From: Gallionella sp.
GTDB lineage: Bacteria; Pseudomonadota; Gammaproteobacteria; Burkholderiales; Gallionellaceae
NCBI GenBank assembly: GCA_017880865.1
Contig: JADGRL010000004.1
Location: forward strand, 35,511-99,510
Reading direction: 5' to 3'
DNA: 64,000 nucleotides
The notes under the pieces are model-generated. The model made no database searches. It worked only from the letters and a program-made list of their open reading frames with translations, and was not told where the DNA came from. Made by a program: the position numbers and the translations under genes. Numbering within the stretch: the first letter of the stretch is position 1; each line of letters starts with the position of its first letter. This document shows, piece by piece, positions 31,673-37,955 of this stretch.

Positions 31673-32704
31673 TTATTTACTTTGCTTGCCAAGCTCATAC
31701 CAACCCTGCGTGGCATTGGCGATTTTCACCACCAGCAACATCACCGGTACTTCGACCAGCACGCCGACCACGGTGGCTAATGCCGCACCCGATTGAAAGC
31801 CGAACAGGCTGATCGCGGTGGCCACCGCCAGTTCGAAGAAGTTGCTCGCGCCGATTAAGGCGGACGGTGCGGCGATGCAATGCGCCACACCCAGACGACG
31901 ATTTAACCAGTACGCCAACCCGGAGTTGAACAATACCTGGATCAGAATCGGCACGGCCAGCATCGCGATCACCAGCGGTTGCGCGACGATGGCATTACCC
32001 TGCAAAGCGAACAGCAACACCAGAGTCAGCAACAGCGCGCCCATCGATAACGGTGCGATGCGCTCCATTGCCTGTTTAAAAACTACCTCGCCCTTCGCCA
32101 GCAAGCGTCGGCGCAATAATTGCGCGAACATGACCGGGATCACAATGTAAAAAATCACCGAGACGAGTAGCGTATCCCACGGCACGGCGATGCTGGCGAT
32201 GCCGAGCAATAAACCCACCAGCGGCGCGAAGGCGAAAATCATGATCGTATCGTTGAGTGCGACTTGCGACAGCGTGAAATACGGGTCGCCCTTCACCAGA
32301 TTACTCCACACGAACACCATCGCGGTACAGGGCGCGGCGGCCAGCAAAATCAGACCTGCTATATAACTGTCGAGCTGATCCTGCGGCAGATAGTCGGCGA
32401 ATACATGACGTATGAACAGCCAGCTGAGGAAGGCCATCGAGAAAGGCTTGACGCCCCAGTTGATGAACAGCGTGACAGCGATACCGCGGCTATGCGCCCG
32501 GACCTGATGCAGCGCGCCGAAGTCTATTTTCAGCAGCATCGGAATAATCATCACCCACACCAGTACACCGACCGGAATGTTGATTCGGGCAATTTCCAGA
32601 CCGGCGATGACTTGGAACACACCCGGGAAGAATTGCCCGAGCAGCACGCCTGCGATGATGCACAGCCCGACCCAGACGGTCAGGTAACGCTCGAATAAAT
32701 TCAT
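31673..32704 (-). CDS. acr3: Arsenite efflux transporter, ACR3 family
   Basis: Inner-membrane arsenite extruder of 343 aa with about ten helices. Known key residues are present: the Cys in LAAAPCTAMVFVWSNL and the Glu in GVLVEVPVMLLV. Other signatures: PVGVLVWVMIIPMLLKIDF, NWGVKPFSMA and ALIGASNFFELAVA. Last gene of the arsR-arsC-CMD-acr3 operon. Confidence 0.94.
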   Translation of the reverse strand: MNLFERYLTVWVGLCIIAGVLLGQFFPGVFQVIAGLEIARINIPVGVLVWVMIIPMLLKIDFGALHQVRAHSRGIAVTLFINWGVKPFSMAFLSWLFIRHVFADYLPQDQLDSYIAGLILLAAAPCTAMVFVWSNLVKGDPYFTLSQVALNDTIMIFAFAPLVGLLLGIASIAVPWDTLLVSVIFYIVIPVMFAQLLRRRLLAKGEVVFKQAMERIAPLSMGALLLTLVLLFALQGNAIVAQPLVIAMLAVPILIQVLFNSGLAYWLNRRLGVAHCIAAPSALIGASNFFELAVATAISLFGFQSGAALATVVGVLVEVPVMLLVVKIANATQGWYELGKQSK

Positions 32705-32734
32705 CTCGACTCCTTCAATGTGTGCGTTGAGGTT

Positions 32735-33082
32735 TCATGGTTTGGTTACCCGATCACCACAAGTTGTGATCGGCTGAGTAACGGCTGGAGTGGTTACACA
32801 ACAAGAGCTGGCACGAACTTTCGTTTCCGGCGTTGCAGGGCCGAGATAGCGTTCAGCAAGATTCAGCATGGCGTGCGCAGGAGTATCTTTGACTTTCTGA
32901 GCAAGATCGACGGCGTAACGCATATCCGAATTGCTGACACCGAGTTTTCGCGCCTGATCGTAATGGTATTTGAGACAAGGCTCGCAATTGCTGGCGATGG
33001 CCGCACCGATGGCAACCAATTCTGCAACTTGCTCGGTAAAAATCGAAGCGTCAGATGAATCCAATATTTTTGTTTTCTTCAT
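32735..33082 (-). CDS. Carboxymuconolactone-decarboxylase/AhpD-like protein of the ars operon
   Basis: A 115-aa protein with a CMD-fold core: ELVAIGAAIASNCEPCLKYHYDQARKLGV holds the AhpD-type redox pair CxxC followed by His. An unusual tail of about 35 residues contains three more cysteines (SSCCVTTP and ITTC). Such proteins recur in arsenic operons; a disulfide-reductase or arsenite-binding role has been suggested for relatives, but it is unproven here. Confidence 0.75.
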   Translation of the reverse strand: MKKTKILDSSDASIFTEQVAELVAIGAAIASNCEPCLKYHYDQARKLGVSNSDMRYAVDLAQKVKDTPAHAMLNLAERYLGPATPETKVRASSCCVTTPAVTQPITTCGDRVTKP

Positions 33083-33092
33083 CGCAAATTCT

Positions 33093-33590
33093 TCAGTCTT
33101 GGATGCGACCGATTTCGGCGAGTTTTTCTTTCAGTGTGAGCTTGTCCAATTTTTCGATAGGCAAACTCAGGAACAACTGGATACGACGCGCCAGTTGCTC
33201 GGCGGCTTTCTTGAACGCAGCGCGCCGCGCTTCATCGCCATCGACATGCGCCGGATCGGGGATGCCCCAGTGCGCTGTGGCCGGATGTCCCAGCCACAGC
33301 GGGCAGGCTTCGCCAGCCGCGTTATCGCACACGGTGAAAATAAAATCGAATTGTGGCGCACCGGGTGCAGCGAACTCGTCCCAGCTTTTGCTGCGCAACC
33401 CTTCAGTGCTGTGCCCCTGCTCCTTTAACCATTCCAGCGCGCCCGGATTGACTCGCCCGGCGGGCTTGCTGCCTGCGCTGTAGGCCTTGAACCGGCCTTT
33501 GCCCAGACTGTTGAACAGCACTTCGCCCAGGATGCTGCGCGCGGAATTGCCGGTACACAACACCAGCACGTTGTATTTTTTGTCTTGCAA
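33093..33590 (-). CDS. arsC: Arsenate reductase, thioredoxin-coupled low-molecular-weight phosphatase type
   Basis: A 165-aa enzyme reducing arsenate to arsenite. The P-loop is VLCTGNSARSILGE (C-x5-R with the family's Asn-Ser), followed by AGSKPAGRVNPGAL, the second catalytic Cys in VCDNAAGEACPLW and DPAHVDGDEA. The C-terminus is longer than in the classic Staphylococcus enzyme. Confidence 0.93.
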   Translation of the reverse strand: MQDKKYNVLVLCTGNSARSILGEVLFNSLGKGRFKAYSAGSKPAGRVNPGALEWLKEQGHSTEGLRSKSWDEFAAPGAPQFDFIFTVCDNAAGEACPLWLGHPATAHWGIPDPAHVDGDEARRAAFKKAAEQLARRIQLFLSLPIEKLDKLTLKEKLAEIGRIQD

Positions 33591-33615
33591 GATTAACTCC
33601 TTAAAAAAGTAACAA

Positions 33616-33933
33616 TTATTTGTTGTTCGGATTGCAGGCCTCAGGATTCCCGCCGCAGCAGTTTTCTGTCAGGTACGCCAGCATGTCATTCATCACCGTG
33701 AAATTCGCGGCGTAGTAGACAAAACGCCCGTCCTGCCTGCCCTCAATCAGCCCAGCATGATCCAGTGTTTTAAAATGGAACGACATCGTTGCCGGAGATA
33801 CTTTCAGCCTCTCGGCCACCTGCCCTGCCGCCATGCCCTCCGGCCCACGCTCCACCAGCAAGCGATAAATCGCCAAGCGTGTGGGTTGGGCCAGTGCTGA
33901 CAATGCTTTTACTACTTGTGCCGATTTCATCAT
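33616..33933 (-). CDS. arsR: ArsR-family repressor
   Basis: A 105-aa winged-helix metalloregulator: LAQPTRLAIYRLLVERGPEGMAAGQVAERLKVSPATMSFHFKTL, then the wing GRQDGRFVYYAA. The arsenite-binding cysteines are at the C-terminus (ENCCGGNPEAC) rather than in the DNA-binding helix, as in other ArsR subtypes with C-terminal thiols. First gene of the ars operon. Confidence 0.93.
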   Translation of the reverse strand: MMKSAQVVKALSALAQPTRLAIYRLLVERGPEGMAAGQVAERLKVSPATMSFHFKTLDHAGLIEGRQDGRFVYYAANFTVMNDMLAYLTENCCGGNPEACNPNNK

Positions 33934-34077: not shown

Positions 34078-34095
34078 TTGTAATAATCCTGTAAC
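34078..34095 (+). promoter_or_regulatory. Pho box upstream of pstS
   Basis: TTGTAAT-AATC-CTGTAAC, a 7-4-7 direct repeat with five of seven matches to CTGTCAT in each half. A -10-like TAACAT starts at 34106, ten bases after the box, 80 bases before the pstS start. Confidence 0.65.
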
Positions 34096-34186: not shown

Positions 34187-35236
34187 ATGAATAGCAAACT
34201 GAAGCAACTCATCATCGGCATCACTGCTGCCACAGCGGTCGCTTATGCCGGCGCAAGTCTGGCAACTGGCATCACTGGCGCGGGCGCCACTTTCCCTTAC
34301 CCGGTCTATGCCAAATGGGCTGAAGCTTACAAAGCTCAAAGCGGTGTTGAGATGAATTACCAGTCCATCGGTTCCGGCGGCGGCATCAAACAGATCCAGG
34401 CCAAGACCGTGGATTTCGGCGCAACTGATGCCCCATTGAATCCAAATGAATTAGCACTCGGTGGCTTGGCTCAATTCCCAACCGTAGTCGGCGGCGTGGT
34501 ACCGGTCATTAACATCGCTGGCGTCACTCCCGGACAATTGAAGCTGGACAGTAAAGTGCTGGCCGATATCTACTTGGGCAAGATCACCAAGTGGAATGAT
34601 CCGCGCATCGTTGCAGACAACGCGGGTGTCACTTTGCCGGATGAGGCCATCACCGTGGTGCATCGCGCCGATGGTTCCGGCACCACCTTCATCTTCACCA
34701 CTTACCTGTCGCAAGTCAGCTTGGACTGGAAACGTAGCGTGGGCGGTGACAAAGCCGTAGCTTGGCCGGTCGGTTTCGGCGGCAAGGGCAACGAAGGCGT
34801 CGCGTCCTATGTGCAACGCCTCAAGAATTCCATCGGTTATGTGGAATACGCTTACGCGCTGCAGAACAAGATGACATACACCCAGCTGAAGAACCGCGAG
34901 GGTCTGTTCGTTCAGCCTGATAGCAGCACATTCAAGGCTGCCGCCGCGAACGCGAAGTGGGACAAGGACAACGGCTTCTACGAAATCCTGACCAACGAGC
35001 CGGGCAAGGATAGCTGGCCTATCACTGGCGCCACCTTCATCCTGGTCCACAAGTCTCCGGAAAAAGTGGAGAGCGCCAAGGAAGTATTGAAGTTCTTCGA
35101 TTGGGCCTACACCAACGGCGACAAACTGGCATCTGATCTGGACTATGTACCGTTGCCTGCCAACGTCGTGACAATGATACGCGACGCATGGAAAGCACAA
35201 ATCAAGGACGCCGCAAACAAGGCTATCTGGAAATAA
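34187..35236 (+). CDS. pstS: Phosphate ABC transporter, periplasmic binding protein
   Basis: High-affinity phosphate binder (349 aa). Signal peptide of about 26 residues, then GAGATFPYPVYAKWAEAY, QSIGSGGGIKQIQAKTVDFGATDAPL and HRADGSGTTFIFTTYL, which hold the phosphate-coordinating residues. A short spacer with a hairpin and a promoter separates it from pstC. Confidence 0.97.
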   Translation: MNSKLKQLIIGITAATAVAYAGASLATGITGAGATFPYPVYAKWAEAYKAQSGVEMNYQSIGSGGGIKQIQAKTVDFGATDAPLNPNELALGGLAQFPTVVGGVVPVINIAGVTPGQLKLDSKVLADIYLGKITKWNDPRIVADNAGVTLPDEAITVVHRADGSGTTFIFTTYLSQVSLDWKRSVGGDKAVAWPVGFGGKGNEGVASYVQRLKNSIGYVEYAYALQNKMTYTQLKNREGLFVQPDSSTFKAAAANAKWDKDNGFYEILTNEPGKDSWPITGATFILVHKSPEKVESAKEVLKFFDWAYTNGDKLASDLDYVPLPANVVTMIRDAWKAQIKDAANKAIWK

Positions 35237-35250
35237 GCTCACGGGTGTGG

Positions 35251-35278
35251 CTGACACAGCACGCCCTTAAGTTATAAT
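35251..35278 (+). promoter_or_regulatory. Internal promoter between pstS and pstC
   Basis: CTGACA (35251-35256) and TATAAT (35273-35278) with a 16-base spacer, a near-consensus sigma-70 promoter starting 15 bases after the pstS stop. The predicted start point falls in the following hairpin. Confidence 0.6.
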
Positions 35279-35280
35279 CG

Positions 35281-35306
35281 CGGGGGCTGATGCCCCCGTT
35301 GTTTTA
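35281..35306 (+). terminator. Hairpin/terminator between pstS and pstC
   Basis: Perfect stem CGGGGGC/GCCCCCG with TGAT loop followed by TTGTTTTA. It would reduce transcription into pstCAB and leave PstS in excess, as in other pst operons. Confidence 0.7.
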
Positions 35307-35341
35307 TCCCCATTATTTTTCTGGCTAAAAAGTACCCGACC

Positions 35342-36304
35342 ATGCCGATGTTTTCAAACGAAGCGCGCCATAAACAACAAGCAGTGTTCGACTTGCTATT
35401 TCGCAATCTGACGCGTGTCTCCGCATTTGGAGTGTTGGCATTATTGGCCGCGATCATCGCATCTCTCGTGGTGGGCAGCATGCCCGCCATCCATGCATTT
35501 GGCTTTGGTTTTTTGACCAGTTCCGATTGGGACCCGGTCAACGATAAATTCGGCGCGCTGATTCCGATCATCGGCACGCTCATCACCTCTGGCATCGCGT
35601 TGATCATCGCGATTCCGGTCAGCTTCGGCATCGCAATTTTTCTGACCGAGCTCTCGCCGCGCATTTTGCGCCGCCCGCTCGGCATCGCGGTCGAATTACT
35701 GGCGGGTATCCCCAGCATCATTTATGGCATGTGGGGGCTGTTCGTATTCGCGCCGCTGTTCGGCGACTACGTTGAACCGTGGCTCAACAAACATGTCGGG
35801 ACCATGCCCTACCTCGGCCCGTTCTTCTCCGGCCCGCCGATGGGTATCGGCATGCTGACCGCCGGCATCATTCTCGCCATCATGGTCATCCCGTTCATCG
35901 CCTCGGTGATGCGCGATGTGTTTGATGTGGTGCCCACCCTGCTCAAAGAATCCGCATACGGTCTGGGCGCGACCACATGGGAAGTGATGTGGAACGTCGT
36001 GTTGCCCTATACCAAAGTGGGTGTGGCAGGCGGCATCATGCTGGGGCTCGGGCGCGCACTGGGCGAAACCATGGCCATCACCTTCGTGATCGGCAATGCC
36101 CACGAGTTGAGCCAGTCGCTGTTAATGCCGGGCAATAGCATTTCCTCCGCATTGGCCAACGAATTCACCGAAGCGGTCGGCGATCTGTACACCTCCTCGC
36201 TGATCGAACTCGGCCTGATCCTGTTTTTCATTACCTTTGTGGTGCTGTCCATCGCGCGCTACATGCTCTACAAGCTGGGGCAACGCGAAGGACAGGCTGC
36301 ATGA
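35342..36304 (+). CDS. pstC: Phosphate ABC transporter permease PstC
   Basis: Inner-membrane permease of 320 aa with six hydrophobic helices. It shows [15 protein letters not shown] and the EAA-type loop [27 protein letters not shown], then [18 protein letters not shown]. It overlaps pstA by four bases (ATGA). Confidence 0.96.
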
Positions 36305-37155
36305 ACGCCATGCTGAATCTATACGCACGCCGCCGCGTCATCAACGCGGTGGGACTCTCCATCTCGGTGCTGGCCATGCTGTTCGGATTATTCTGGCTAT
36401 GCTGGATATTATGGACGCTGTTGGACCACGGACTGTCCGCACTCACCCCGGTGGTGTTCGCGCAAATGACGCCTCCGCCAGGTAGCGCGGGTGGCCTGCT
36501 CAACGCGATTGCGGGCAGCCTGATGATGACGCTGGTCGGTACGCTGATCGGCACACCCATCGGAATATTGGCGGGCACCTATCTGGCTGAATTCGGCCAG
36601 CGCGGCTGGATGGCGCCGATCACCCGCTTCATCAACGACGTGCTGCTGTCCGCCCCCTCCATCGTGATCGGCCTGTTCGTGTATGAAGTGTATGTGGTCA
36701 AGGTCAAACATTTTTCCGGCTGGGCAGGCGCGCTGGCCTTATCCATACTGGTGATTCCGATCGTGATTCGCACCACCGAAAACATGCTGCGCCTGGTTCC
36801 CAGCACGCTGCGTGAAGCCGCTGCGGCACTCGGCGCACCTCAGTGGAAGGTCATCAACTTCGTCACGCTGCGTGCCGCTCGTGCGGGCATCATCACCGGT
36901 GTATTGCTGGCCGTGGCGCGCATCAGCGGCGAAACCGCGCCGCTGTTATTCACCGCGCTCAACAACCAGTTCTGGAGCAGCAACATGAATCAGCCTATGG
37001 CCAATCTGCCTGTGGTGATTTTCCAGTTCGCGATGAGCCCTTACGCAGACTGGCAAAACCTGGCCTGGGCGGGTGCGCTGCTGATTACCGTCAGCGTGCT
37101 GACGCTCAATGTCCTGGCGCGCGTGCTGTTCCGTCAAAGCGCAACTACCCATTAA
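36301..37155 (+). CDS. pstA: Phosphate ABC transporter permease PstA
   Basis: Second inner-membrane permease (284 aa), six helices. Signatures: [55 protein letters not shown] and [13 protein letters not shown]. Coupled to pstC by the ATGA overlap. Confidence 0.96.
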
Positions 37156-37181: not shown

Positions 37182-37955
37182 ATGAACATCGAAACCATCG
37201 CCAATCCGAAGATCATCATCAAGGACCTGAACTTTTATTACGGGAATTACCGCGCGCTCAAAGATATCAACTTGAGCATCGCGGAAAAAATGGTGACCGC
37301 CTTCATCGGCCCATCCGGCTGCGGCAAGTCAACGCTGCTGCGCACCTTCAACCGCATGTATCAGCTCTATCCCCAACAAAAAGCTACCGGGGAGATCATG
37401 CTGGATGGCGCGAATATCCTCGACAGCAAGCAGGATCTGAACATGCTGCGCGCCAAGATCGGCATGGTGTTCCAGAAACCCACGCCGTTCCCGATGTCCA
37501 TCTATGACAACATCGCATTCGGCGTAAAGTTATACGAGAATCTTAATAAGCATGACATGGAAGCACGCGTGGAATGGGCGTTAAAGAAGGCCGCGCTGTG
37601 GGGCGAGGTAAAAGACAAACTAAAACAAAGCGGCACTGGGTTATCCGGCGGACAGCAACAACGCCTGTGCATCGCCCGTGCGATTGCGGTCAAGCCGCAG
37701 GTGCTGCTTCTGGACGAACCGACCTCCGCACTCGACCCAATTTCAACCGCGCACATCGAAAAATTGATCGACGAGTTGAAGGAAGACTTCACGATCGTGA
37801 TCGTCACACACAACATGCAACAGGCCGCGCGCATCTCCGATTACACCGCCTACATGTATCTGGGCGACCTGATCGAACTGGGTGAGACCAGCACCGTATT
37901 CACCAACCCCAAGCGCAAGGAAACGGAGGATTACATAACAGGTCGCTTCGGTTAA
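37182..37955 (+). CDS. pstB: Phosphate ABC transporter ATPase PstB
   Basis: Cytoplasmic ATPase of 257 aa. Walker A GPSGCGKS, signature LSGGQQQR, Walker [14 protein letters not shown] and H-loop VTHNMQQA are intact. Ends with the family's DYITGRFG. No phoU, phoB or phoR follows; a terminator closes the operon. Confidence 0.97.

Follow-up and report, generated by a model that had tools for sequence, protein, structure and literature searches.

A phosphate-transport gene cluster containing four genes (pstS, pstC, pstA and pstB) was identified on the forward strand of the 64,000-nucleotide stretch of Gallionella sp. DNA that was analysed (the window). The genes pstS (34187-35236), pstC (35342-36304), pstA (36301-37155) and pstB (37182-37955) encode the phosphate-binding protein, two membrane subunits and the ATPase subunit, respectively, and score above the cut-offs of the NCBIfam models NF008171/TIGR00975, TIGR02138, NF008430 and TIGR00972, in the same order. 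The intergenic region between pstS and pstC is 105 nt long, with pstA and pstB next downstream. The genes for PhoB and PhoU are present in the source genome on contigs other than the pst contig. An arsenic gene cluster (31673-33933) encoding an ACR3 transporter, an ArsC-like protein and an ArsR-type regulator lies divergent from the pst genes. A scan of the window with Rfam 15 at the gathering score returned one tRNA only and no known RNA family at the pstS-pstC junction, which rules out a known Rfam element as the identity of the junction.

The junction contains a promoter-like sequence, CTGACA-16-TATAAT (35251-35278, forward strand, as are all features given below), that matches the consensus at 11 of 12 positions, in agreement with the near-consensus promoter reported in a preliminary description of this DNA. 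The hexamer TATAAT (35273-35278) matches the sigma-70 -10 element at 6/6 positions, including A2 and T6. The -35 element CTGACA (35251-35256) is clade-specific and matches at 5/6 with a spacer of 16, within the 16-18 nt expected for sigma-70. The core -10 together with the G at -14, GTTATAAT (35271-35278), is defined by its conservation in 95 relatives. A terminator-type stem (35280-35299) follows, composed of the 5' arm GCGGGGGC (35280-35287), the loop TGAT and the 3' arm GCCCCCGT (35292-35299), and then the tail TGTTTTATC. Both arms were recognised by the scan, by RNA folding and by covariation in relatives, and the scan counted 7 GC pairs among the 8 bp of the stem. The T-rich tail, TGTTTTAT (35300-35307), was assigned from the sequence here and from the T content of the tail in relatives. 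A GC-rich stem directly adjoining a T-rich tract is the sequence signature of an intrinsic (rho-independent) terminator, and the predicted folding energy of the complete hairpin is -18.1 kcal/mol (z of -4.3), so the GC hairpin reported beside the promoter is also present. The gap between promoter and hairpin is a single base (C35279) and not two bases as first described. A second, upstream hairpin (hairpin 1, 35243-35266), predicted by RNA folding and frequent but not universal in relatives, overlaps the -35 region.

From the position of the -10 and the folds of shortened RNAs, an RNA start is predicted 6-8 nt past the hexamer (35284-35286), within the 5' arm; a +1 at 7 nt would correspond to 35285. 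RNAs beginning at 35284, 35285 and 35286 would retain 4, 3 and 2 stem pairs, with predicted energies of -7.3, -4.0 and -0.7 kcal/mol, respectively. The earlier proposal of a start inside the 5' arm is therefore borne out as to position, with 3 of 8 pairs left at the predicted +7, although initiation itself is a prediction from the -10.

Background counts were made in a 399-kb sample of the source genome. Only the junction site, among 49 TATAAT sites in this sample, has a -35 that matches at 5/6 positions or better with a spacing of 16-18. Of 72 terminator-like sites in the sample, two, the junction included, carry an exact TATAAT positioned with its +7 inside the 5' arm, and the second of these retains practically the whole stem. 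A loose hexamer scan of 5 kb gave 3 promoter-like sites against 3.6 expected and thus no excess; the significance of the junction promoter lies in match quality and conservation, not in hexamer count.

Conservation was examined in relatives belonging to the Gallionellaceae, as judged from named matches (Sideroxydans, Gallionella and Ca. Ferrigenium). The pstS-pstC intergenic regions were taken from same-genus genomes and from other genera of the family, in which pstC was located and the upstream DNA was read, giving 129 loci (128 distinct). By one fixed criterion, the unit was scored as present where a -10 matched at 5/6 positions or better and its +7 lay within the 5' arm of a stem with 6 bp or more. 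This applied to 104 of the 128 distinct regions, compared with 13 of 2460 first-order shuffles of them; the unit so defined is lacking in the other 24 family regions and occurs in 6 of 66 intergenic regions outside the family. A set of 95 sequences chosen by a second criterion, a G-run 2-5 nt past the -10, was used to describe the unit. The gap between the -10 and the G-run varies within these 2-5 nt with a standard deviation of 0.7, whereas the distance from the pstS stop to the -10 ranges from 10 to 164 nt and that from the -10 to the ATG from 44 to 126 nt. The gap is thus nearly fixed while the flanking distances vary, and therefore the -10 and the hairpin travel together. They also stay together where insertions lengthen the region (L017 and L030). 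In L017, a long insertion with inverted repeats, at about 10-164 nt past the pstS stop, separates pstS from the unit, which was displaced as one piece.

The hexamer in the 95 units is TATAAT in 87, TACAAT in 7 and TATACT in one, and 92 of the units have G at -14. At -15, nearly all relatives have A or G; the conserved G at -14 lacks a preceding T, and hence no canonical TGn motif is formed. A -35 of CTGACA or CTGACT at spacer 16 is present in 20 of the 95 units and in none of 40 short intergenic regions, and no recognisable -35 was found in 40 of the 95. The -35 was for this reason rejected as a member of the conserved core, which comprises GN-TATAAT plus the hairpin. Loop length varies from 3 to 9 across relatives, the arm sequences change with compensation, and the covariation of the stem exceeds that of all shuffles (0/500; alignment A1). 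The tail has at least 4 T in 9 in most relatives. A start at +7 would leave 2-6 stem pairs in 92 of 93 relatives.

A strict DNA pattern of the unit gave one match each in 73 of 158 family genomes, overlapping double counts apart. These matches lie less than 250 nt upstream of pstC in 71 cases, and the other two lie just after pstS at contig ends; a reversed-pattern control gave 2 matches in all 158 genomes. A dispersed repeat or general genomic motif is ruled out by this single occurrence per genome at pstS-pstC. Partial AAT/ATT pairing of TATAAT with the tail exists in some genomes. Retention of TATAAT solely for such pairing is likewise ruled out, as the hexamer persists without tail pairing (e.g., L004 and L038) and the G at -14 lies outside the stem. 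The association of promoter-like sequence and hairpin is real and far from chance.

A probable Pho box (TTGTAAT-AATC-CTGTAAC, 34078-34095) precedes pstS and matches at 10 of 14 positions, the box being scored out of 14 as two 7-bp repeats spaced 11 bp apart upstream of a -10. Among 51 same-genus loci whose upstream DNA was long enough, 50 scored 10-14/14 before pstS, whereas no Pho box was found before pstC in those loci, the best scores in the pstS-pstC regions being 7-10/14. The internal promoter is accordingly not classed as a Pho promoter. The presence of the box before pstS alone suggests that pstS most likely answers to phosphate and that the internal promoter most likely does not.

The junction is probably a compact promoter-terminator fusion, in which the terminator would act on pstS RNA and be blind to RNA from the overlapping promoter, the latter supplying basal PstCAB. 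PhoB-driven pstS RNA would enter the GC hairpin and mostly end there, giving abundant PstS and a smaller amount of PstCAB from read-through. Other RNA would start inside the 5' arm, from a housekeeping-sigma promoter whose -10 is of the extended type (G at -14 and TATAAT) and which CTGACA assists in the source clade. This internally started RNA would keep about 3 of 8 stem pairs, so that the terminator could not act on it, and it would provide a basal, Pho-independent supply of PstCAB. The Pst complex has a role in Pho repression. From this known role, we infer that the likely reason for basal PstCAB is a need for the transporter in Pho signalling when phosphate is plentiful. The separate control of PstS and the membrane transporter put forward in the preliminary description is thus partly supported: the layout conserved as a unit, the spacing that places the start in the arm and the Pho box before pstS alone favour it, whereas the start, the stop and their functional coupling are predicted from sequence.

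Two other explanations compete mainly with the proposed fusion, namely close packing in which the overlap has no function, and a site of RNA processing. According to the first, promoter and hairpin are both real and their overlap reflects close packing, the start position having no function and the hairpin mainly trimming or stabilising pstS RNA. This agrees with the position of the exact TATAAT about 18 nt farther upstream in genus g51, with the weak tails of some genomes (L003, L009 and L038, in which the -10 and hairpin are present with little T-tail) and with two loci of other families (L097 and L098) that show the conventional order of terminator and then TATAAT. However, the spacing of -10 and hairpin is nearly fixed even in a 218-nt intergenic region with ample room (L017), and packing pressure alone is no explanation for fixed spacing in long intergenic regions. 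The packing explanation is weakened by this spacing and is considered unlikely, though it is the strongest of the alternatives.

According to the second explanation, which appears improbable, no promoter exists and UAUAAU is an AU-rich, RNase E-like cleavage site between two hairpins that separates and differently stabilises the pstS and pstCAB RNAs. A sequence-variable second hairpin does directly precede TATAAT in many genomes whose intergenic region is longer (e.g., L009, L087, L251 and L257-L264); it shows apparent compensatory changes, is partly covarying, and folds better than 95% of shuffles in 25 of 66 cases. In addition, the corresponding junction of Escherichia coli MG1655 carries a stable REP-like stem and lacks both a T-tail and TATAAT. 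RNase E, however, does not need an invariant hexamer, whereas TATAAT and the G at -14 are nearly invariant and the variants TACAAT and TATACT follow sigma preferences in retaining the A and T at which sigma recognition is strictest. Short intergenic regions that lack the upstream hairpin still keep GN-TATAAT, and the junction has the best -35 among the 49 TATAAT sites counted in the source genome. The cleavage explanation is therefore weakened by the near-invariance of GN-TATAAT.

A regulated switch was also considered, in which slippage in the five-G start run would add G and re-form the stem with the C-run, so that completion of the pstCAB RNA would depend on nucleotide levels or on the exact start chosen; this is regarded as very improbable. 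Even less credence is given to the palindrome being a protein operator at an internal promoter and not an RNA hairpin. A strong inverted repeat does lie directly over the expected start, but an operator would keep half-site sequence and spacing, in contrast to the variable loop and compensated arm changes described above, and the T-rich tail indicates termination. That the promoter-like sequence and the terminator adjoin by chance, as the lack of excess in the loose hexamer scan might suggest, is already ruled out for practical purposes by conservation, as the unit occurs in most family regions against 0.5% of shuffles and the strict pattern is always at the pstS-pstC junction.

Several known systems resemble parts of the proposed fusion. 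Some ABC importer operons have an intercistronic partial terminator or stabilising stem behind the binding-protein gene, as in the REP stem of malE-malF, and this leads to more binding protein than membrane subunits. The pst junction shares a stem after the first gene with these systems and differs in having a promoter predicted to start in the stem. The E. coli frd terminator overlaps the ampC attenuator/promoter region, and in this case too a short piece of DNA holds both the terminator of one unit and, overlapping it, the control region of the following unit; the ampC transcript, however, holds the whole attenuator hairpin, whereas at the pst junction the start would cut the stem. The E. 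coli MG1655 pstS-pstC junction lacks a promoter-terminator fusion, unlike that of the Gallionellaceae. Alternative or internal promoters have been reported for the E. coli pst operon (Spira et al. 2010, as cited in PMC12096839); on that secondary account, promoters inside the operon besides the PhoB-dependent one before pstS are common to both, so an internal promoter per se is not new. In Bacillus subtilis pyrG, a G-run start with reiterative G addition controls a terminator (PMC4448216). The predicted pst start also lies in a G-run, and a terminator's C-run follows farther on. Of reiterative initiation, the pst junction shows the G-run start alone, with no sign of slippage, and its G-run is followed by C or T. 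No description of a conserved promoter-terminator fusion was found in a limited literature search.

If RNA does start in the stem, one 50-bp element would stop upstream RNA and yet stay blind to RNA from the overlapping promoter. This would be a very compact means of separate control of a binding protein made in quantity and a membrane complex made in smaller amounts, and would keep a signalling transporter present under plentiful phosphate. The unit is kept in most of a family of iron-oxidising-type bacteria, and can thus be tested in cultured members and used as a design. Caution is also advised before a junction of this kind is labelled just "operon" or "terminator" on the basis of its sequence.

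Exceptions to the common arrangement were found in several groups. In genus g51, the hexamer that touches the stem is TAAAAT or TACAAT; unless this hexamer is the one used, RNA begun from the exact TATAAT upstream would include the complete hairpin. In the g51 loci L268-L282, a tandem pair of -10-like hexamers, at a distance of about 18 nt from each other, lies ahead of the hairpin and perhaps serves two starts, of which one would include the full stem and the other would not. The hexamers are degenerate in most g52 genomes, and the g52 loci L284, L286 and L289-L292 have a long AT-rich inverted repeat (TTTTGAAAATTGATTTT ... AAAATCAATTTTCAAAATTTG) in the DNA that separates the hairpin from pstC. 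Five loci (L006, L015, L040, L043 and L220) have the hairpin without TATAAT, and the sole TATAAT of L042 lies just past the pstS stop, away from the hairpin.

Paralogues of pstS without pstC downstream were identified in L018, L022 and L048, where other, non-pst genes follow. These paralogues keep the GCGGGGG hairpin and T-tail, and TTTATTT or AATATAT replaces TATAAT. The loss of TATAAT fits a promoter role and is suggestive only, because the three paralogues probably represent one evolutionary event. The pstS paralogue of L010, which is followed by a phoB-like gene, has kept both TATAAT and the hairpin.
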